From: Undaria pinnatifida
Lineage: Eukaryota > Sar > Phaeophyceae > Laminariales > Alariaceae
DNA length: 64,000 nt
Reading direction: 5' to 3'
NCBI GenBank assembly: GCA_012845835.1
Contig: JABAKD010000016.1
Span: forward strand, 2,288,359-2,352,358
Below, piece by piece: positions 14,601 through 47,860 of the stretch (positions are counted from its first letter, which is position 1; each line of letters opens with the position of its first letter). A model generated the notes under the pieces. That model was not told where the DNA came from. It worked only from the letters and a program-made list of their open reading frames with translations, and made no database searches. Position numbers and translations under genes: made by a program.

Positions 14601-16964
14601 GAGCACTCGAACGTTGGAGGTGTCTCTATTAGGAGTAGGTGCGGTGCTCCGACTCGAAAGAGATGCGCGGTCAATGGTAAAATGACTAAGCCAAGCAAAA
14701 ACTGAGTACCCCCCCCCCCTCCCAGGTAATCGACGCTGTCATCCAGATGCAACAAAGTACGCACAAGACGCCCAAGCCCGCCCCAGAAAAGATTCTTACT
14801 TCGACGCAGCTCACCCTTCATGCGACTCGCCGAACATTTCACGGTGCTCGCGCTTGGTGCAAGCAATGTTTGTCTGGTCGGTGAAAACCCGACATGCCCC
14901 ATCCCGACATTGCAGGGACGCGGGGATCCATGGTCTTAACAGACTTCGGTTACGCATGACAAAGATTATACCGCCCCCCCTCCCCTCGCAACCCCCTCCC
15001 CCCCCCCCAATCCCCCCTCCTCCAATCCCCTCCCACCTGGTTGGTGAAAACCCGACGTGCTCCGTCCCAGCATAGTAGGGATGCGAGGGTCTATGGTCAT
15101 GCGACTACGGCCATGCACAAATTGAGTACACCCCTCCCCAATCCCCTCCACTCCGCCCCCACCCACCCCCCCCCCTCCTCGTGTTTTTGCAATGTTCGCG
15201 GATCTCACTGTTCGGTCGGTTTGTGTCACCCACCTCCCTGTTTCCGCCAAACTCAACGCGTTTACAGGGTCGACCAATAAAAAGCTGAGGGTGCACCTTC
15301 CGATATTCGCGCCGAGCGGTGGGCTGTCGCGTCTCCGAGTGGGTTCCGAAACGCGGGAAGCGGTGGCGGGTAGAGCGTTAGTGTTTGATGACTCTTTCGA
15401 GCACGAGGCTTGGAACGACGGTAGCGTGAGTGACGGGTTGAGCGGAGGTGTAGGGGAAAGCTTAGGCGAAGGAAAGAGGGAAGTTTTGGGCGAAAGCTTG
15501 AACGAAGGCTCCAACGAAGGTTTAAGCGAAAGTTTGAGCGAAGGCTTGAACGAAGGCTTGAGCGAAGGCTTGAGCGAAGGCTTGAACGAAAGGTTGAACG
15601 AAAGTTTGGGGGAACGTTTGAGCCAAGGCTTGAACGGTGGCCTGAGCGAAGGCTTGGGAGAAGGCTTGAGCGAAGGCTGGAGCGAAGGCTGGAGCGAAGG
15701 CATGGGCGAAAGCTTGAGCGAACGCTTAAATAAAAGCTTGAACGAAACTTTGAACGAAACCTCGAACGGAATCTTAAACAAAAGCTTGAGCAAAAGCTTG
15801 AGCGGAAGCTCGAACGAAAGATCGAAAGAAAGGTCGAATGAAGAATCGAAGGACACCTTAATCGGCGGCTTGAACGGTGACCTGGGCAAAGGCTTGAGCA
15901 CCGGCTTGCGGAAAGGCTTGAGCGAAGGCCTGGGCGGAGGCTGCTGTGGTGGTCGGGAGGGTGATAGTGCTGCACAGGTGGTACCGGAGGGAGATACGGG
16001 TGGAGGACGAGAAGGAGGGAGGAAAGGAGCGCGAGGACGGGGGGGAGGGGGGGGAGGGAGGGAAGGGGTGTGGGGCGGAGAAGGAAGGGGGGGCGGAGCA
16101 GGCAGCGGAGGAGAGGGGAAAGGAGGCGGAGGAGCAAGAGGAGGGAGAAGGGAAGGGACGGTGCGAGAGAGGAGAGGAGGCGAGGGAGTGGCAGGAGGAG
16201 CGAGGCGGGGAATAGCAATGTCAGCAACAGCAGGAGGACGAGCGGGGGTAGGCAGAGGTGTAGAAGCGAGGAAACGGTGTTGGAAGGTGGGGGGGAAGGG
16301 AGCGAAAACGGTAGCAGCGGATGAGGAAGAACAAGAGAGCGACGATGACACTACTTGCCGGAGCGGAGATGACGGCGGCAGCGGCAGCGGCAGCGGGTTC
16401 CGTGAAAGCAACGGCCACGAAGTTGGCCGTGTGCAACCTATTAAGAGTCACAAAAACGATGGAGTGGGAGGGGAGACCTCACGCACGCTAGACTCCAGAG
16501 GGATCGAGGCCTCCGAAGGAAATTCTCGCGACAGAGCCGTCGACGCTGAAAATATCAACAGCGGTGGTAACGCTGAAATTGGTGGTGGTGGTGGTGTTAG
16601 TGTTGGTGTTGGTGCTTGTGTTCGTGTTGGTGGCGGTGGCGGTGGTGGCGGTGTAGGTGGCGATGGCGGCGACGGTGTCGATGGCGGTGTCAGTGTCGAT
16701 GGCGGTGGCGGACCTAGCACGCTCGAGACCAGGGCCGCGGAAATGAGCGGACGGGCGCCACCATCTCCTAGGATAACTCTGATCGCTGACGTCTGGCACC
16801 CGGATCTTTCACCTAGGCAAGCACGGCACGATTGGTCGGTTACACAGCGGGCTACCCGATTTAAGATCGTCCATAGCAAGATATCACTAATGTATCAGCG
16901 GCCACATCGCCTTGTGACGCCTTGTGACGCCTATACCAAAAGCCTATATCACGCCCAACCTTAG
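5420..16964 (+). CDS. Aspartyl/asparaginyl beta-hydroxylase-like dioxygenase (whole gene, seven exons)
   Basis: I rebuilt this gene from seven exons with GT-AG borders and matching phases: 5420-5653, 6135-6297, 7197-7315, 12697-12795, 13822-13933, 15268-15425 and 16728-16964. The sum is 1122 nt, giving 373 residues and a stop. The family (AspH-type, Fe(II)/2-oxoglutarate-dependent, double-stranded beta helix) hydroxylates Asp/Asn side chains in the animal enzyme; the substrate here is unknown. The core motifs are PGLRSKAFW, LPWVADFEKG, DWNVFYLFLH, MCPETC, FSALAPGTHV, STNKKLRVHLP, RVGSETR, FDDSFEHEAWND and RITLIADVWHPDLS. By comparison with the human enzyme as I recall it, the His of RVHLP and of FEHEAW are the iron ligands, and the Arg of RITLI binds 2-oxoglutarate. 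No signal peptide or clear membrane helix is seen, unlike animal AspH. The first five exon joins are secure; the last one is uncertain (see 15426-16727). Confidence 0.85.
5849..5930. repeat. Tandem repeat, about 27 bp x 3, in intron 1
   Basis: Three near-identical copies of AGAAGATCGTATCCAACAAC with a CAAACAT-type linker lie in the first intron of the dioxygenase gene. Confidence 0.85.
6135..6297 (+). CDS. Dioxygenase gene, exon 2
   Basis: The acceptor CCTGCAG ends at 6134 and the exon opens in phase 0, matching exon 1. It codes SIGSDTTEEFTRVRRWLIGR and then a variable linker, ending QRGCPEIIP plus one base. The donor GTGGGT at 6298 leaves phase 1. When joined to exon 3 it restores PEIIPGLRSKAFW, the typical entry into the AspH domain, which is good support for both borders. 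Confidence 0.8.
7197..7315 (+). CDS. Dioxygenase gene, exon 3 (start of the AspH domain)
   Basis: The acceptor AATGAAG ends at 7196 and supplies the two bases needed for phase 1. The exon reads (G)LRSKAFWSREELPWVADF and on to KELVALRGRGGFQ, the alpha-helical entry region of the family. The donor GTAGGA at 7316 is phase 0. An acceptor at 7177 would also keep this frame but has the wrong phase for exon 2. Confidence 0.85.
7316..8185. other. Intron 3 of the dioxygenase gene, first part
   Basis: This is the start of a 5.4 kb intron (7316-12696). I see no gene or clear repeat in this part. The open frame on the opposite strand over exon 3 is a shadow. Confidence 0.5.
8186..8320 (+). repeat. Dispersed repeat family R120, copy 1
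   Basis: This is a copy of a family I find eight times in the window. Its core in order is CACTCCAGCTGTGAGATCGA, then GTCGAAACTCAT, TTGCAAGCTGTGTGTGATAC, TCCGATCGCGCG, and a tail with GTGTCCTC and AGGATATAGGTCGGCGA. It has no open frame and no Pol III A/B boxes that I can see. Its nature (short MITE, SINE or fragment of a longer element) is unknown. Confidence 0.8.
8500..8704. repeat. G-rich low-complexity tract
   Basis: There are long runs of G on the plus strand (several of 8 or more), interrupted by GA steps, within intron 3. The tract is predicted to be able to form G-quadruplexes. The open frames over it are composition artefacts. Confidence 0.8.
8705..10019. other. Intronic sequence without a recognised feature
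   Basis: This part of intron 3 holds no gene and no repeat that I can assign, apart from a short poly-G run at about 8830. Confidence 0.4.
10020..10085. repeat. Dispersed 60-bp repeat, first of five copies in intron 3
   Basis: CTCTATCGCAGCCG followed by CAGGGCCCCTCGCAGTGG and a GGTCGGCTG block recurs at about 10525-10600, 10810-10870, 11575-11630 and 12625-12685. The last copy ends about a dozen bases before exon 4 of the dioxygenase gene. Confidence 0.7.
10640..11575. repeat. Minisatellite, unit about 45 bp, roughly 20 copies
   Basis: The unit combines CACCTACCGTTAAATCTTGG with AAAAATTAAGGTACACCC. Copies vary by single-base changes and small indels, and the array contains a block of telomere-like CCCTAAACCCTAGCCCTAACCC at about 11048-11070. 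It lies wholly within intron 3. Confidence 0.85.
12165..12250 (+). repeat. tRNA-related SINE-like sequence
   Basis: An A-box-like TCTAGTGGATAAACTG and a perfect B-box stretch GGGTTCGAATCCC are spaced as in a tRNA gene and followed by a short A-run. The acceptor and anticodon stems do not pair, so this is not called a tRNA gene. Fragments of another A-box-like motif (GTAGCTCAGTGG) lie nearby at about 12422. Confidence 0.5.
12697..12795 (+). CDS. Dioxygenase gene, exon 4
   Basis: The exon codes HLKAASDGIGSHCHEGG then DWNVFYLFLHNIEFEK. The W-N-V-F-Y-L-F-L-H block is a hallmark of the family. The CAG acceptor ending at 12696 is phase 0, matching exon 3; an acceptor six bases earlier would add two residues. 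The donor GTGAGC at 12796 is phase 0 and is followed at once by a long G-rich tract. Confidence 0.85.
12800..12990. repeat. G-rich tract just after the exon 4 donor
   Basis: Runs of G separated by GA/GC steps start within 20 bases of the 5' splice site, for example at about 12806-12815 and 12961-12976. The 128- and 167-codon frames on the opposite strand are artefacts of this composition. Confidence 0.75.
13228..13262. repeat. (GGA)n microsatellite
   Basis: About a dozen GGA units lie in intron 4 of the dioxygenase gene. Confidence 0.9.
13640..13775. repeat. Dispersed repeat next to poly-C tracts
   Basis: A GGTGTCTCTATTAG...GTGCTCCGTCTCG...GGTCAATGGTCAAATGACTA block ends in a poly-C run. 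Related copies are at about 14600-14720, 25030-25100, 38270-38350 (reverse), 40345-40410 and 40420-40490. Shorter related pieces with CCCGACATGCTCC are at about 14885-14975, 15045-15130 and 60600-60680. Confidence 0.6.
13822..13933 (+). CDS. Dioxygenase gene, exon 5
   Basis: The acceptor GTGCCAG ends at 13821 in phase 0. The exon codes NRSMCPETCALIKALPR and FFSALAPGTHVIKHK plus one base. CPET and S-A-L-A-P-G-T-H are family motifs leading into the first strand of the catalytic fold. The donor GTAAGG at 13934 is phase 1 and is followed by a G-rich and then a (GGTGTT)n tract at about 13985-14042. Confidence 0.9.
15268..15425 (+). CDS. Dioxygenase gene, exon 6 (catalytic core)
   Basis: The acceptor TTTACAG ends at 15267 and completes the phase 1 glycine codon. 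The exon reads STNKKLRVHLPIFAPSGG, RLRVGSETR and ALVFDDSFEHEAWNDGS. It supplies both expected iron-binding His residues (252 and 288 of the spliced protein), with the acidic pair of FDDS before the second. The open frame continues past its end without a stop. A consensus GTGAGT donor at 15426, phase 0, directly follows WNDGS; a weaker GTAGCG donor lies at 15421. Confidence 0.85.
15426..16727 (+). other. Stop-free intervening segment in the dioxygenase gene (exitron-like intron or in-frame insertion)
   Basis: This 1302-base segment (434 codons, a multiple of three) is open in the gene's frame from exon 6 to exon 7. About 15430-15930 is a degenerate 12-bp repeat (GGCTTGAGCGAA) that would code (LSEG)n/(LNEG)n. 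About 15990-16330 is purine-rich Gly/Arg/Glu coding, and about 16560-16715 codes Gly/Val-rich GGT/GTT repeats. The start is a consensus GTGAGT. The only phase 0 acceptor near the end is a weak CTCGAG at 16722-16727. The better-looking CATCTCCTAG ending at 16771 has the wrong phase for that donor. If translated, the protein would be about 807 residues with an insertion inside the catalytic barrel. The opposite strand is also open over most of this stretch (481 codons), so openness alone is weak evidence for coding. Confidence 0.6.
16728..16964 (+). CDS. Dioxygenase gene, last exon
   Basis: The secure part starts at about 16764 with PSPRITLIADVWHPDLSPRQ, the last strands of the AspH fold, including the Arg expected to bind 2-oxoglutarate and the WHPDLS motif. 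The acceptor is uncertain. With 16728 as the first base, 13 non-conserved residues precede PRITLI. The reading frame runs on about 50 residues past WHPDLS, without recognisable features, to a TAG at 16962-16964. Confidence 0.7.
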   Translation, partial: TRAAEMSGRAPPSPRITLIADVWHPDLSPRQARHDWSVTQRATRFKIVHSKISLMYQRPHRLVTPCDAYTKSLYHAQP

Positions 16965-20208: not shown

Positions 20209-20389
20209 AAAATCAGTTTTCTGGGGTGAGGTATGGAGCTCCTTCAAATGAGGAAGGCTTCTCGGAGAAAAATTGTTTTGCACAGACGCGGGCTATGATA
20301 GAGGTATATATAAAGACTGATTCTACGATAGCCCCCCCCTAAACCAGGGGCCACCTGCACTATCTGCATTTTTGTTGGAAGCTCGTGAA

Positions 20390-21815
20390 AGCTTCCATGG
20401 AAGCTTCCCTGGAAGCTTCCCCGAAAAGCTTCCGTGGAAGCTTCCATGAAAGCTTTCACGGACACGGAAGCAACTTCCACGGAAGCTTCCATGAAAGCTT
20501 CCACGCAAGCTTCCACGGAAGCAACTTCCACGGAAGCTTCCACGAAAACTTCCACGGAAGCAACTTCCACGGAAGATTCCACGGAAGCTTCCACGGAAGC
20601 AACTTCCATGGAAGGTTCCATGAAATCTTCCACGGAAGCAACTGCCACGGAAGCTTCCACGAGAGCTTCCGCGGAAGCAACTTCCACGGAAGCTTCCACG
20701 GAAGCTTCCACGGAAGCTTCCATGAAAGCTTTCACGGAAGCAACTTCCACGGAAGCTCCCATGAAAGCTTCCACGGGAGCAACTTCCACGGAAGCTTCCA
20801 CGAAAGCTTCCGCGGAAGCAACTTCCACGGAAGCTTCCACGGAAGCAGCTTCCACGGAAGCAACTTCCACGGAAGCTTTCATGAAAGCTTTCACGGAAGC
20901 TCCCACGGAAGCAACCTAACCCTAACCCTAACCCTAACCCTAACCCTAACCTTTCATGGAAGTAACTTCCATTACTTCCATGGAAGCGTCCATTACTTCC
21001 GCGAAAGCTTCTATTACTTCCATGGAAGCTTTCGTGGAAGCTCCCGTGGAATTTGCTTCCACGGAAGCTTCCATATCTTCCATATCTTCCATGGAAGCTT
21101 CCACGGAAGCTTACGGAAGCTCCCATGAAAGCTTCCGTGGAAGCTTTCATTTCTTACATATCTTTCATGGAAGCTTCCACGGAAGCTTCCATGATGATTT
21201 CCGTGGAAGTTACTTCCATGAAAGCTTCCATTACTTCCATGAAAGCTTCAATGGAAGATTTCGTGAAAGTTACTTCCATGGAAGCTTTCGTCGAAGCTTT
21301 CGTCGAAGCTCCCGTGGAAGTTACTTCCGTGGAAGCTTTCATATCTTCCATAACTTCCATGGAAGCTTCCAATGAGCTTCCGTGGAAGTTACTTCCATGA
21401 AGGCTTCCATAACTTTCGCGAAAGCTTCCACTACTTCCATGAAAGCTTCCATGGAAGTTTTCGTGGAAGTTACTTCCACGGAAACTTTCGTGGAAGCTTT
21501 TGTAGGAGCTCCCGTGGAAGTTACGTCGGTGGAAGCTTTCAGTTCTTCCATATCTTCCACGTAAGCTTCCACGGAAGCTTTCATGAAAGCTTCCGTGGAA
21601 GTCACTTCCATGAAAGCTTCCATAACTTCCGCGAAAGCTTCCATTACTTCCATGAAAGCTTCAATGGAAGCTTTCGTCGAAGCTTTCGTCGAAGCTCCCG
21701 TGGAAGTTACTTACGTGGAAGTTTTCATATCTTCCATCTTTTGGAAGCTTCCATGGAAGCTTCCATGAAAGCGTTGAAAGCTTCCACGGAAGCTTTCATG
21801 AGCTTCCACGCAAAA
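20390..21815. repeat. Degenerate minisatellite of palindromic GGAAGCTTCC units
   Basis: About 1.4 kb is built from GGAAGCTTCC joined by CAC/CAT/CGT steps, with GGAAGCAACTTCC and GGAAGTTACTTCC variants. The unit is a palindrome, so both strands stay open and give false (EASTEAS)-like and (GSFHGSF)-like frames of up to 275 codons. The left half is rich in CACGG steps. The right half is rich in CATGG/CGTGG steps. The two halves are separated by the telomere-like block at 20915-20951. Confidence 0.9.
20915..20951. repeat. Interstitial telomere-like array, six CCCTAA units
   Basis: About six perfect CCCTAA units lie between the two halves of the GGAAGCTTCC minisatellite. The sequence continues on both sides, so this is interstitial and not a chromosome end. 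Confidence 0.9.
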
Positions 21816-22208: not shown

Positions 22209-22650
22209 TGTTGATCACGGGCCCTTGCAAGGGCATTGCGCGGGGACACAGAGTATCCCCTGAAGGTCTACCTATTGAGCAGGTCCTCGGAGAGTGCTCA
22301 CTTTCTTTGCCTTAGGAGAGACGTAGCTGTAGTAGATTCCACCAGAGCCTCGGATGACTTCTGAGAACGAGGCGCGTGCCTCCATTCTATTTCCTGACTA
22401 TCCCGAATAGAAAACGCCAACGTTATCATATGAAACCCGACCAAATTATCTCAATTCAACTAATTACAGGCCTTTCGAGGCCGTACCTTAACATTGGCCC
22501 ACCCTGATGAGTCGCATACGCAGAAATATGGGAGATTCGGGGAAAATCCAGTTCTACGAACTAGACCATGAGTCGAAGATGCGGCTCGTCAAAACCCACT
22601 CCCACACCTCTAACGGCCTGGCTATGGAGCCAGGAACACGCTAAGAAAAA
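22209..22650 (-). mobile_element. TRIM-family retroelement, partial copy (one LTR plus internal part)
   Basis: 22209-22493 matches the 269-bp LTR at 31900 (GGGGACACAGAGT, GAGCAGGTCCTCGGAGAGT, CTTTCGAGGCCGTA) and ends TTAACA. The internal part 22494-22650 follows with CCCACCCTGATGAGTCGCA, GGGAGATTCGGGGAAA and CTATGGAGCCAGGAACACG. Homology stops after about 22650, exactly where the tRNA-derived part of the intact copy begins. The outer end of the LTR is not exact. Confidence 0.7.
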
Positions 22651-23342
22651 CAGTTGCAGGAACGCAGACCCTACAACCAGGCAAACCACCCATCAATAAC
22701 TTGCCGCATACCGCCGGTGTGGCGGGGGGGAGGGGGGCGGAAAAGGCTCTACGGCAAACCAACCACATAAAAGGTACTAGGGCGAGGCGAGCCCTCGTCG
22801 ATATGAAGGGGGACACAGCGCTAATACAAGGGAGAAGTCATACCAAAAACCTCCCACGGGCCATCGGCATGGCGGTGGGTTAGACGAAGAAACGACAAAT
22901 GCCCGGAATGGAAGGTGGCATCACCTACAGCCCCGCGAGGGGGGGGAGCGTTTAGCCGAAAGAAAAGTAGAAGAAATACAACACACAAAAAAAAAGAAAA
23001 AGATAACACGCAGTCCCTTAAATAGCCCTGTACCACGTCACACGCGAACAGGGTACCCTGGTCGCCCCCCCGGCTCTGGGCTGAGGCGTCGGCAGGGCGA
23101 ATATGAACAATGACGAAAAAGCGACAGTCCTGCGCCTCAGGTAGCGGCATGTCAGCCGAACGCTGGCCCGGCACAAGGCGGGAGGGGTGCCGGCAGGACT
23201 AAGAAGAAAAAATGGCTAGAACCGCCCCACACCCAGTAAAAAAAAATGCTCGAAAACCACGAACAACCCAAAGGCAAAAACTCCACACCTCGTAACCAGA
23301 AAAAAAATAGAGAACTATCGAGGGGCGGTGGTGGCTTGAAAG
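22651..23342. other. No recognised feature
   Basis: I see no gene or repeat that I can assign here. A-rich stretches occur on the plus strand. Confidence 0.4.
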
Positions 23343-31269: not shown

Positions 31270-31526
31270 GACTGATTCTACGTTAGCCCCCCCCCAAAAA
31301 AACCAGCGATTTTCTTTCACGAACGCTTCATGGCTGCTCGGCACGAGGAAGGATGCCACGAAATGCATATATTCGCATATTTTCTTGTTTTGCACGAAGG
31401 ACTATCAAACGACGACGTCGGGGTGGCAAGAGGCACCGTATTTCAGGAGATACGACCGGGAGCTGGTTTCAAAACCGGCGATTTCGGGAAAGACAAGTTG
31501 GGTGGGCTACTACCGTAGAACGACTC
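31270..31526 (+). mobile_element. MITE family M1, copy 2 (compact)
   Basis: GACTGATTCTACGTTAGCCC at the left and GGGCTACTACCGTAGAACGA at the right are imperfect inverted repeats around 257 bases. The body matches copy 1 at 19940-20208. It is non-coding. Confidence 0.75.
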
Positions 31527-31899
31527 GGCGTGCGTTGCAAACAATGAGTGAGTGCGTGACGCCGTCGATACCCACCGTTTGGACAAAAGAGATGTGCCGC
31601 TCACTACATGATGACTAGACTACAACATGCTGATGATCTGGAGTTGGTGAGAGTGACGAGAGAAACCAGTCGGCACCCAAACAGATTCCACCCCGGCAGG
31701 TGGGGTTTGGCTCAGACCGAGCGTCTGCGTGCTGCTGTCCTTCAGTGTTGTTTGACTTGTATCTCGGTCTTGCAGTTTGTGACCATAATAGTATTGAAGT
31801 ATTCTTCGGTAGTCCCCCCAGCCTTTCTTTAACGAAATCGCCGGTTTTGAAACCAGCTCCTGGCCGTATCTCCTGAAATACGGGGCCCCTACCCACACC

Positions 31900-32168
31900 T
31901 GTTAAATTGAAGGTGGGGGACACAGAGTGCCCCCTGCAGGCCTGCCAATTGAGCAGGTCCTCGGAGAGTACTCACTTTCGTTGCTTCGTAAAGATGTAGC
32001 TTTATTCGTTTCCACCAGAGCCCGGGATAGCTTCTGAGATCGGAGGCACGTGCCTCCGACCTACTTCCTAACTTTCCCGAATATAAAACGCCAACTTTAT
32101 CATACGAAACCCATCCAAGTGATCTCAAATTCGGATACTTACAGGCCTTTCGAGGCCGTATCTTAACA
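31900..32168 (-). repeat. 3' LTR of the TRIM
   Basis: The LTR is 269 bp with TGTTAA/TTAACA termini and nearly identical to the LTR at 32399-32667, which suggests a fairly recent insertion. It contains the palindrome GGAGGCACGTGCCTCC. Confidence 0.85.
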
Positions 32169-32336
32169 CTAGCCCACCCTGATGAGTCGCACATGCAGAA
32201 ATATGGGAGATTCGGGGAAACTTCGGTTCTACGAACTAGACCATGAATCGAAGATGCGGCTCCTCAAAACCCACTCCCACACCTTTAACCGTCTGGCTAT
32301 GGAGCCAGGAACACGCGAAGAAAAGCAGTAGAAAAC

Positions 32337-32396
32337 GCATGGATTCGAAACCCATTGTTATTTCACGCGCAGGTTCGTGTCCTGCCGTCGACGCCA
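32337..32396 (+). other. Serine tRNA (CGA) 3'-half sequence with CCA, at the TRIM primer site
   Basis: Read on the plus strand, this stretch folds as the 3' half of a class II tRNA. An anticodon arm ATGGA-TTCGAAA-CCCAT has anticodon CGA. A variable-region stretch TTGTTATTTCACGC follows, then a perfect T arm GCAGG-TTCGTGT-CCTGC and an acceptor strand CGTCGACG ending CCA at 32394-32396. The CGCGCAGGTTCG block is typical of eukaryotic serine tRNAs. No 5' half is present. The CCA is not encoded in eukaryotic tRNA genes, so this was most likely copied from a mature tRNA by reverse transcription. Confidence 0.75.
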
Positions 32397-32398
32397 CA

Positions 32399-32667
32399 TG
32401 TTAAATTAAAGGTGGGGGACACAGAGTGCCCCCTGCAGGCCTGCCAATTGAGCAGGTCCTCGGAGAGTACTCACTTTCGTTGCTTCGTAAAGATGTAGCT
32501 TTATTCGTTTCCACCAGAGCCCGGGATAGCTTCTGAGATCGGAGGCACGTGCCTCCGATCTACTTCCTAACTTTCCCGAATATAAAACGCCAACTTTATC
32601 ATACGAAACCCATCCAAGTGATATCAAATTCGGATACTTACAGGCCTTTCGAGGCCGTATCTTAACA
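32399..32667 (-). repeat. 5' LTR of the TRIM
   Basis: This is the 269-bp partner of 31900-32168. In the element's own (minus) orientation it is the upstream LTR, directly followed by the primer-binding site. Differences from its partner are few single bases. Confidence 0.85.
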
Positions 32668-32950
32668 CACCGACGTCATCATTCGATAGTCCTTCCTTCG
32701 CAAACAAGAAAATTCGTGAAGATGTTTTCTTCATAGCATCGAGAAAGAGGCACGTGCCTCCGATCTACTTTTCTAACTTTCCCGAATATAAAACGCCAAC
32801 CTAATCATACGAAACCCATCCAAATGATCTCAAATTCGGATACTTACAGGCCTTTCGAGGCCGTATCTTAACACACCGACGTCATCGTTCGATAGTCCTT
32901 CCTTCGCAAACAAGAAAATTCGTGAAGATGTTTTCTTCATAGCATCCTTT
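32541..32950. repeat. 205-bp tandem duplication across the TRIM/MITE junction
   Basis: The segment from GAGGCACGTGCCTCC in the LTR to TTCATAGCATC in the M1 flank (32541-32745) is repeated immediately (32746-32950) at an offset of 205 bases. It therefore includes the LTR end and the flank, so it arose after the TRIM inserted. Confidence 0.8.
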
Positions 32951-33156
32951 CTCGTGTCGAGCGGCCATGAAACGTTCGTTCAACAAAATTGCTGGTTTTG
33001 GGCGGGTACTACAGTAAAATCAATCTATTACAGTTCGCGGCATCACTCAAGGCAACAATAAAATTTATTTAGACGAAAATAAGAGCATGGGCTCTTTCGT
33101 ACTGCAAATAAATTATGTAGGACACACGCCCTGCCTTACATGAAAATTCCAACCTC

Positions 33157-41174: not shown

Positions 41175-41614
41175 GACCACTACAGTACTGTATATCAGGT
41201 ACAGTATGTGGGTTTTGTAGCCTCGCACGGTAGAGGTGTGGGAGTAGGTTGTGAAGAGCCGCATCTTCGAGACATGTTCTAGATCGTGGAACCGGTGCTT
41301 CCCCGAATCTTCCATATTGTTGCATATACGGCTCATCAGGGTGGGCTAGTGTTATGGTATTCCCCTGGGAGCCTAACGAGGCGTGAGTTATGGGATACGG
41401 CTGGATGTAAAGGGTTTCATATGCCTTTGAGGGCATGTGCGTATAGGAAAAAGGGGATGATGCTTTTGCCTCGCGGAATTGAACGCTATTCAGTTCGTCC
41501 GTGGAGAGTGTGAAACTAATACAAGAGCTTATCTAGTACAAGTAAGCGACGAACGTGGAACCTGCCTATTATTAGTAGAGAAACCTGCAAAGAGTGGCCT
41601 GTGTGTCTGTAACA
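41175..41614 (+). mobile_element. TRIM-family relative: internal domain plus a different 265-bp LTR
   Basis: Read on the plus strand, 41175-41349 is the same internal domain as in the TRIM at 31900 (GAGCCGCATCTTCGAGACAT, CCCCGAATCTTCCATATTG, CATCAGGGTGGGCTAG). It is directly followed by a 265-bp LTR (41350-41614) that starts TGTTATGG and ends CTGTAACA. That LTR is largely unlike the 269-bp LTR of the other copies. The purine tract AGGGTGGGCTAG sits right at the LTR border, as in the other elements. The other LTR is missing. Confidence 0.65.
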
Positions 41615-46739: not shown

Positions 46740-47559
46740 CTCCAATGCCCGCCTATTGTTCCATTACAGCCTGTGCTGGGTGAGCGCACTGGATTGTACG
46801 TAGTGGTACGCGCTAGGAGTTCCGTTGCCAGCCCCTGATAGAACACGAACGCCAACCCAATTTGCCACCCCACCTCCCTGCCCCCCTCCGCCTGTGTACG
46901 GCAGCAACCCCCGCCCAATGCCCCCTCGGTAGCGGTAAACGTCTAGATCCGTCACCAGTCTTACACCCCCCCCCCGCCCCCCCCCGCCTGTGTACAGTAT
47001 CACCCCCCCCCAATGCCCATCAGTTTTGACCCGTGCTGGGTAAGCACAACTCCCCCAACCCCTTTGCCTGCGTACGGTGGCAAAGCCCCCCAAAGCCCAC
47101 CTGTTTTCACTCGTCCCGGGCGGGTGCGCTGCACTCTAGGCAGCGGCATGCATCTAGCTCCGTCATCTGCCCCCACAGGCCAACCTCTCCCCTCCCACCT
47201 GCCTCCGTCTGTGTACGGTACCACCCCCCTCAACGCCCACCTGCGTTGCCAGCCCCTGACAAAGCACGAGACGCCAACCCGCCAATATCCCCCCCCCCCC
47301 CCCCCCCCCCCCCCCGCGCCCCCGCATGTGCACAGTATCCCTTCCCCCCAATGCCCATCCCATCTGTTGAAACCCGTGCTGGGTGAGCACGCTGCACTCT
47401 GGGTAGAGGTGCGCGCCTAGCTCCATCGCCAGCTCCTGACAAAAACATGGACGACACGACGCCACCCCCCCCCCCGACCCCCTGCCTGTGTACACTTGCA
47501 AACCCTCCCAAAAACCCACCCCCTCCCCCTGTGTACGATATCAAACGGGGCCACCTCAC
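46740..47559 (-). repeat. Tandem degenerate copies of the 3' half of the Rho exon
   Basis: Five to six pieces resemble the last ~70 bases of the exon at 47560-47742 plus the start of its intron. The clearest (47450-47365) still reads ELAMELGAHLYPECSVLTQH and is preceded by TTTTTGTCAG, but its donor is AT and not GT. Others are at about 47200-47100 (MTELDACRCLECSA, shifted frame, GTGGGC donor kept), 47290-47250, 47045-47020, 46960-46920 and 46865-46765. Each is followed by GGGCATTGG and a CGTACACAGGxGG block, so the repeat unit spans exon end and intron start. Confidence 0.75.
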
Positions 47560-47742
47560 CTGTTTTAACCCGTGCTGGGTGAGCGCACTGCACTCTAGGT
47601 AGCGGTACGCGTCTAGCTCCGTCGCCAGCCCCTGCGCTTCGCTGAAGCTGATGGGCGTCTGCCGACGCTCCGCGAGCCGCTTGACGGCGTCCTGGTCATC
47701 CCTCAGGTCAAGCTTCGTCCCCACGAGTATAAACGGGATGCC
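47560..47742 (-). CDS. Rac/Rho-type small GTPase, exon with the G4 and G5 motifs
   Basis: The exon (61 codons, phase 0 at both ends) has acceptor TTCTTCGCAG before 47742 and donor GTGAGG at 47559. It codes GIPFILVGTKLDLRDDQDA, a Rho insert-helix-like LAERRQTPISFSEAQGLA and YRYLECSALTQHGLKQ. TKLDLR is the guanine-specificity motif (G4) of Rho proteins and ECSALTQ is G5. The TKLD form and the region between the two motifs place it in the Rac/Cdc42/Rho family and not Ras or Rab. Rho proteins are membrane-bound switches controlling actin and polarity. The C-terminal exon with the prenylation site is not found. Confidence 0.9.
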
Positions 47743-47860
47743 CTGCGAAGAACAAACACAAAGTTCATACATATCATGCACATATCTTACAGATCATAAA
47801 CACTTGACACAAAACACAAATAATAGAGAAAACAGACACAATACGATAGCCACAAGCGCT

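Follow-up and report, generated by a model that had tools for sequence, protein, structure and literature searches.

Why should a short LTR retroelement carry, beyond the point at which its primer-binding site (PBS) would be expected to end, a long stretch of the tRNA that primes it? The question is raised by a locus in the 64,000-nucleotide stretch of the Undaria pinnatifida genome analysed here (the window). A sequence-only reading of the window had placed a half-tRNA-Ser with CCA at the PBS of a TRIM element, at 32337-32396; the half-tRNA is real, and its true extent is 32339-32396, two bases shorter than claimed.

A short LTR retroelement with a lengthened primer-binding site

The sense strand of the tRNA is the plus strand, and therefore the element reads on the minus strand, as a short LTR retroelement of 768 bp composed of LTR, PBS, internal region, purine tract and LTR (Table 1). 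The LTR pair forms direct repeats with TG...CA ends and three differences in 269 bp (98.9% identity), and no Pfam domain was detected at an E-value of 0.1 in four open stretches within the element or adjoining it. Paired LTRs ending TG...CA, a PBS to the 3' end of a host tRNA, and small size without coding capacity found place the element among the TRIMs. The right LTR end and its flank sit in a tandem duplication of about 206 bp (32542-32950), in which a partial LTR is about 95% identical; because of this duplication the insertion age is uncertain, and the identity of the LTR pair may stem from conversion. Pairs of inverted repeats lie around the element (31299-31390 with 32908-32999, and 31420-31510 with 31809-31899), which suggests that it inserted inside or beside older inverted-repeat transposons.

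Table 1 Parts of the element and its related copies in the window
Feature	Position	Strand	Remarks
5' LTR	32399-32667	-	269 bp, TGTTAA...TTAACA
LTR-PBS spacer, 2 bp (CA)	32397-32398	-	same CA spacer in sister copies having a PBS
Canonical 18-base PBS	32379-32396	-	complementary to tRNA-Ser positions 59-76, CCA included; eight sisters match over just these bases
Over-extension, complement of tRNA-Ser(CGA) positions 27-58	32339-32378	-	40 bases past the PBS; 32378 is T (plus strand), host gene A58
Short internal region	32181-32338	-	meets the tRNA piece near 32333-32338
Candidate polypurine tract AGGGTGGGC	32172-32180	-	found also in the 22-kb and 41-kb copies
3' LTR	31900-32168	-	266/269 bases identical to the 5' LTR
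Candidate 4-bp target-site duplication CACC, left	31896-31899		flank match
Candidate 4-bp target-site duplication CACC, right	32668-32671		flank match; right flank inside local tandem duplication
Related copy, about 86% identical	22242-22666	-	no tRNA piece, no second LTR found in the window
Third partial copy, internal region	41227-41354	+	opposite orientation

The additional sequence derives from tRNA-Ser(CGA)

The stretch at 32339-32396 corresponds to positions 27-76 of tRNA-Ser(CGA), CCA included, and lies 2 bp from the 269-bp LTR. It comprises an anticodon arm (ATGGATTCGAAACCCAT), a 13-base class II variable arm, a T arm (GCAGG-TTCGTGT-CCTGC) and an acceptor strand CGTCGAC followed by G73, CCA, the CA spacer and the LTR at 32399. 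When both strands of the window were scanned for structure, a perfect T arm with CCA turned up twice, where Markov sequences would give 0.23 per 64 kb, and its combination with a class II anticodon arm at 32339-32396 alone (expectation 0.1 per 64 kb). Against human tRNA-Ser, the 40 bases past the PBS score 40, a value reached by none of 5000 shuffles and none of 12,792 40-mers from the window; the match to yeast tRNA-Ser is weaker, with 10 shuffles in 5000 and 24 window 40-mers in 12,792 attaining its score. The resemblance of the piece to a tRNA is beyond chance. ARAGORN called no tRNA, LTRs included, and Rfam cmscan reported nothing in the 141-base context of the piece and a weak, truncated tRNA match for the isolated 60-base piece (14 bits, E 0.76), which is not surprising for a piece without the tRNA 5' part. 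The tRNA identity is settled by a host CGA gene (L055) that agrees with the piece at 53 of 55 gene-encoded bases, differing at 32359 (G to T, variable arm) and at 32378 (A58 to T). This comparison with the parent gene, which the sequence-only reading had proposed, carries the match well past 18 bases, and the order of parts given in that reading, a CGA anticodon arm, variable arm, perfect T arm and acceptor strand with CCA beside the LTR, is borne out by the structure and by the host gene alike.

The same reading had suggested that the element might be turning SINE-like. The piece runs antisense to the transcript inferred for the element, and similarity to a D arm, which would contain the A box, is not significant in the window copy (for human tRNA-Ser the score of 8 lies below the shuffle mean of 9.9, and for yeast the score is attained by 536 of 2000 shuffles). 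It is an ordinary PBS made longer, and a SINE-like function is not supported. Retro-pseudogenes of tRNAs that include CCA occur in other genomes, and a tRNA-derived SINE or retro-pseudogene might have inserted beside the LTR by chance; against such an accident, which we regard as extremely improbable, the piece lies 2 bp from the LTR in the exact place and orientation of a PBS, and the 18-base PBS followed by NN-TGT is common to 1,662 sites in the host assembly (511,146,479 bp in 68 contigs).

In viral and prokaryote contigs there was no match to the LTR or the internal region and no tRNA-Ser pattern with an anticodon arm. The T-arm pattern with A58 returned 30 stretches from the viral contigs, many of them tRNAs, and the T58 pattern returned two, neither resembling a tRNA gene. 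When compared with viral tRNAs, the piece gave 43 for a Tyr tRNA and 42 for both an Asn tRNA and Ser(CGA), Ser(CGA) not being singled out.

Family members differ in the length of the tRNA match

A search with the 768-bp element returned at least 53 matches in the host assembly (40 of 2,750 candidates were scored), and aligning their PBS regions, as the sequence-only reading had recommended, revealed same-family copies with 18-base and with longer tRNA matches. Among the copies with a readable PBS, the match covers just 18 bases (positions 59-76) in L036, L062, L063, L064, L065, L068, L069 and L080, and is shorter in L061, L066 and L067 (= L039). Over-extension within the same LTR family is seen in the window element (L033), L034, L035, L037 (= L071) and L070, the junctions of which differ; three of these five have T58, L070 has a garbled loop one base shorter, and L035 keeps A58. 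In seven of the eight 18-base copies (L062-L065, L068, L069 and L080) the base adjoining the PBS, at position 58, is likewise T. This could be a misread m1A58 followed by a stop or could be part of a T-rich internal sequence, the two being indistinguishable.

The copy near 22 kb had been described as ending its shared internal sequence exactly where the tRNA part begins in the element under study. It does lack the tRNA piece, but there is no simple stop: it runs on into internal sequence of the family type (ACGCAGACCCTACAAC), and it is this sequence, present in the 22-kb copy and in other family copies, that the piece at 32339-32396 replaces. Across the family copies, 60 to 1,126 bp separate the shared internal end from the LTR, so that the small copies look like internal deletions.

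Copies across the host genome carry letters expected of a mature tRNA

Searching for the T arm of the window piece identified ten tRNA-Ser genes (genes with a different T arm fall outside this set), six with the anticodon AGA and an acceptor strand ending GACGACG and four with CGA and GTCGACG. All ten have G26 and no encoded CCA, none has a GGA anticodon, and each is followed by a T run, of at least five T in nine genes and four T in one. With position 58 left free, the ten T-run sites without a CC or CT continuation all have A58, and the other six T-run sites (C1:670309, C2:12178555, C2:15312136, C20:6138899, C30:10688444 and C33:8226990) are followed by CC or CT. Beside L056 lies one more variant gene, likewise with A58.

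The whole T arm through an encoded CCA was found at 234 sites host-wide and at none with the reversed pattern as a control. Position 58 is T at 138 of these sites (17 in one tandem array), A at 65 and, by subtraction, G or C at 31; two further CCA copies with A57 lie outside the pattern, and L035 is another A58 case outside it. The sequence context was read for all 82 A58-pattern sites, for 19 of the 169 non-A58 sites and one odd site, and for 19 sites of a set in which positions 26 and 34 were free. Of 67 A58 copies with CCA, 11 are full length or one base short and 16 start at position 26 or 27 (16 of 52 partial copies), the starts of the others being scattered. Position 26 in the 12 long A58 copies is A in ten and T in two; mismatches at other positions mostly amount to 0-9% and rise to 18% (2 of 11 or 2 of 12) at three positions of the D region. 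The first position of the variable arm (tRNA 44) differs in 8 of 61 copies (13%), above most positions outside 26, possibly through another modification or through shared ancestry.

With positions 26 and 34 free, 46 sites were recovered. Twelve have G26 (AGA 5, CGA 6, GGA 1), ten of them being genes without CCA and two (L106 and L174) having CCA. The remaining 34 divide into A26 with GGA (17) or CGA (7), T26 with GGA (2) or CGA (4), and C26 with CGA (2) or GGA (2); CCA is present at 30 (15 of 19 sites in one set read, 11 at other loci read and 4 assigned by position), and the 3' ends of the other four are decayed or rearranged (TCA in L177, CTA in L179, ACA in L189, rearranged in L181). AGA, the anticodon of six genes, is absent outside genes among the 46 sites, and GGA is common. 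The 46 A58 copies that reach the anticodon have GGA (21), CGA (23), GGG (1) or TGA (1) and in no case AGA, and the 19 non-A58 sites have GGA (7), CGA (6), AGA (1, L162) or another or no anticodon (5). All three altered letters are combined in the full-length copies L185 and L187 (A26, GGA, T58) and L188 (A26, GGA, C58).

Judged from these letters, the combination of CCA, G34, A or T at position 26 and T58 indicates cDNA of a mature tRNA rather than gene DNA. GGA would represent inosine-34 of the AGA tRNA read as G, and the starts at 26/27 would fit a block at m2,2G26. Recombination or gene conversion at the DNA level between a tRNA-Ser gene and the PBS would explain why the window piece equals the CGA gene at all but two bases (53 of 55), but the genes found with this T arm are without CCA, have A58 and G26 and never GGA, whereas the copies have CCA and altered letters; we give this reading hardly any credence. 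Some observations tell against a modification-based origin of the substitutions: A58 is kept in 65 of the 234 copies and in L035, AGA is kept in L162, and the variable-arm difference from the gene at 32359 is one for which we know of no explanatory modification.

The positions concerned are those at which modified tRNAs are misread elsewhere. Misincorporation occurs at m2,2G26, m3C32, A34I and m1A58 in fission-yeast tRNA sequencing (PMC4697793), and in zebrafish errors occur at m2,2G26, m3C32 and m1A58 and I is read as G (PMC11417395). m3C32 is described for tRNA-Ser in a further report (PMC7969016); misreading at this base was dropped as a signature, the host gene having T32.

Junctions are mostly distinct

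Of 55 readable junctions between tRNA and internal sequence, 51 are distinct. Exact repeats are confined to the tandem duplicates L101 and L133 and to the pair L059/L122, to which L092 is a near match. The dispersed group of L059, L092 and L122 (= L146, L144 and L145) was considered as a case of renewed mobility and rejected: its flanks are shared on both sides, and it is therefore one insertion copied with its surroundings, a duplicated repeat. The earlier suggestion that the altered element had stayed mobile is thus not borne out, since repeated junctions belong to tandem or segmental duplicates.

One or a few ancestral elements might instead have captured a full-length tRNA copy that later deletions trimmed, the signature letters being inherited. 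The variable internal deletions of the family, which leave 60 to 1,126 bp from the internal end to the LTR, and the tandem or segmental duplicates (L101, L102, L133, L144-L146 and the C13 array) would agree with such a history. It is nevertheless unlikely in view of two isoacceptors (CGA and GGA), four bases at position 58, at least two at position 26, many combinations of these, many LTR types, the predominance of distinct junctions and the peak of starts at 26/27. Still less likely is a 3' half-tRNA or tRNA fragment that served as primer or was ligated in, a variant of which, a half-tRNA cut near the anticodon, had been offered in the sequence-only reading. The window copy does hold the 3' part of the tRNA alone; yet its end at position 27 lies upstream of the anticodon, other copies stop at many different points or, in 11 of 67 cases, extend as far as the tRNA 5' end, and the 18-base PBS is ordinary, so that no cut is needed.

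Among 20 loci tested (L135-L154), an LTR pair starting just after CCA and spacer was found at six (L138, L144, L145, L146, L148 and L152); eleven had no direct repeat in reach, and L136, L150 and L153 had nested or partial repeats. The two-LTR elements with tRNA pieces include L138 with a full-length tRNA, L148 with a start at 27 and TGGG on both flanks, and L152. Given these six loci in 20, and given that 12 of the 67 A58 copies with CCA have no TG 1-4 bases after CCA (two of these 12 have TG immediately), some of the copies have decayed, are cut off by the limits of the stretch read or have no link to a PBS.

Two loci have further unusual arrangements. L041 contains, at 1149-1945, an inverted palindrome of 798 bp that has the tRNA-Ser anticodon loop at its centre; both arms include LTR sequence, and there are six mismatches in the 400-base arms. 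This inverted dimer would fit an extended strand whose end at position 27 folded back onto its own anticodon stem and served as its own primer; a folding prediction that used RNA parameters gives such a structure for the 30-base end. At C13:868343-874114, 17 copies of the tRNA-Ser PBS with T58 form a tandem array with an even spacing of 359 bp. The array unit in L170 (C13:868300-869100) has a second tRNA-like T-arm stretch (the reverse of GTGGGTTCGATCCCCAC), possibly a Helenus-like LTR.

Over-extended plus-strand synthesis as the probable origin

In order to rationalise these copies on the molecular level, we start from what is directly established, namely the near-identity to the host gene, the CCA, the layout of LTR, 2 bp and PBS, the distinct junctions and the concentration of substitutions at positions 26, 34 and 58. 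With high confidence we propose, on the basis of these sequences, that a short non-autonomous LTR element was primed by mature tRNA-Ser(CGA), that plus-strand synthesis went past m1A58 and that the over-extended end was joined internally. During plus-strand strong-stop synthesis, reverse transcriptase would normally halt before m1A58 and leave an 18-base PBS copy. In the window element m1A58 would have been read through with A misread as T, and misreads of m1A58 favour T; the primer, still attached, would have been copied to position 27, adjoining the expected m2,2G26. Presumably unable to pair fully in the normal second strand transfer, the over-extended 3' end may have been joined at a nearby internal site, which would produce the tRNA insert and the internal deletion together, and the same event would have occurred many times in the host, up to the full-length tRNA. 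We infer that the host has these modifications, that over-extension belongs to plus-strand strong-stop synthesis and that the ends were joined by misplaced strand transfer, although end joining may have been at work instead. That reverse transcription ran far into the primer tRNA, as the sequence-only reading had put first, finds strong support in host copies that come in many lengths, the complete tRNA with CCA included, and is backed further by their substitutions at usually modified tRNA positions.

The biochemistry underlying this proposal is known. As set out in a review (PMC13191261), retroviral plus-strand synthesis halts at m1A58, can pass it, and reaches the tRNA end on unmodified tRNA. 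Primer over-extension in lentiviruses and spumaviruses, treated in the same text, resembles the present case in synthesis past A58 and in element sequence that matches the tRNA beyond the 18-base PBS. There, useful over-extension ends at 54-55, whereas the host copies reach 27 or the tRNA 5' end, and the match contiguous with the PBS continues beyond position 59 for 40 bases in the window element. Unlike what is related of those viruses, the host copies have internal-deletion junctions and modification-type substitutions fixed in the genome.

The element also shares features with systems covered in PMC10886601. Helenus and TRIMp3 are likewise short non-autonomous LTR elements carrying tRNA-derived sequence, but in Helenus the tRNA sequence forms part of the LTRs and has no relation to the PBS, whereas here it is the PBS itself that is lengthened, in a place flanked by the LTRs and in antisense to the transcript; scans of the LTRs by ARAGORN and Rfam returned no tRNA-like sequence inside them. 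Copia-type priming from the anticodon loop similarly yields an LTR-adjoining region that matches a tRNA around the anticodon, yet in the window element the PBS corresponds to the usual 3' end of the tRNA, to which the anticodon part is added. With TRIM elements, as described there, the window element has in common LTRs, a PBS, a short internal region and no coding capacity found, and it differs in the over-extended primer tRNA of its internal region and in family members with longer interiors, which extend 1,126 bp or more past the part in common. A survey of titles and abstract openings, with subscription papers mostly outside it, found no genome-fixed primer tRNA copies of this length, and the word 'tRNA' is absent from the main text of an Ectocarpus TE paper (PMC12477816). 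Genomic copies on this scale appear to be new.

We favour, with some reserve, a wider reading in which the reverse transcriptase of host LTR elements often passes m1A58. The genome would then hold an archive of tRNA-Ser cDNA, with more than 200 copies, most of them independent, that records inosine-34, m2,2G26 and m1A58 in the form of substitutions that are fixed and can be dated, and short, internally deleted LTR elements would regularly arise through over-extension and a subsequent misplaced strand transfer. The m1A58 stop and its failure, known mainly from retroviral work in the test tube and in cells, would become countable in a genome, and the copies could date tRNA modifications in the lineage, show the error rate of strand transfer and point to the way in which some short LTR elements originate.

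Other features of the window

A minisatellite at 20377-21813 is built of 12/27-bp units with open frames and is interrupted at about 20915-20951 by telomere-like CCCTAA repeats. Pfam searches of 27 open stretches gave just two matches, Asp_Arg_Hydrox at 15192-16964 on the plus strand and Ras at 47233-47793 on the minus strand, and both stretches are probably exons.
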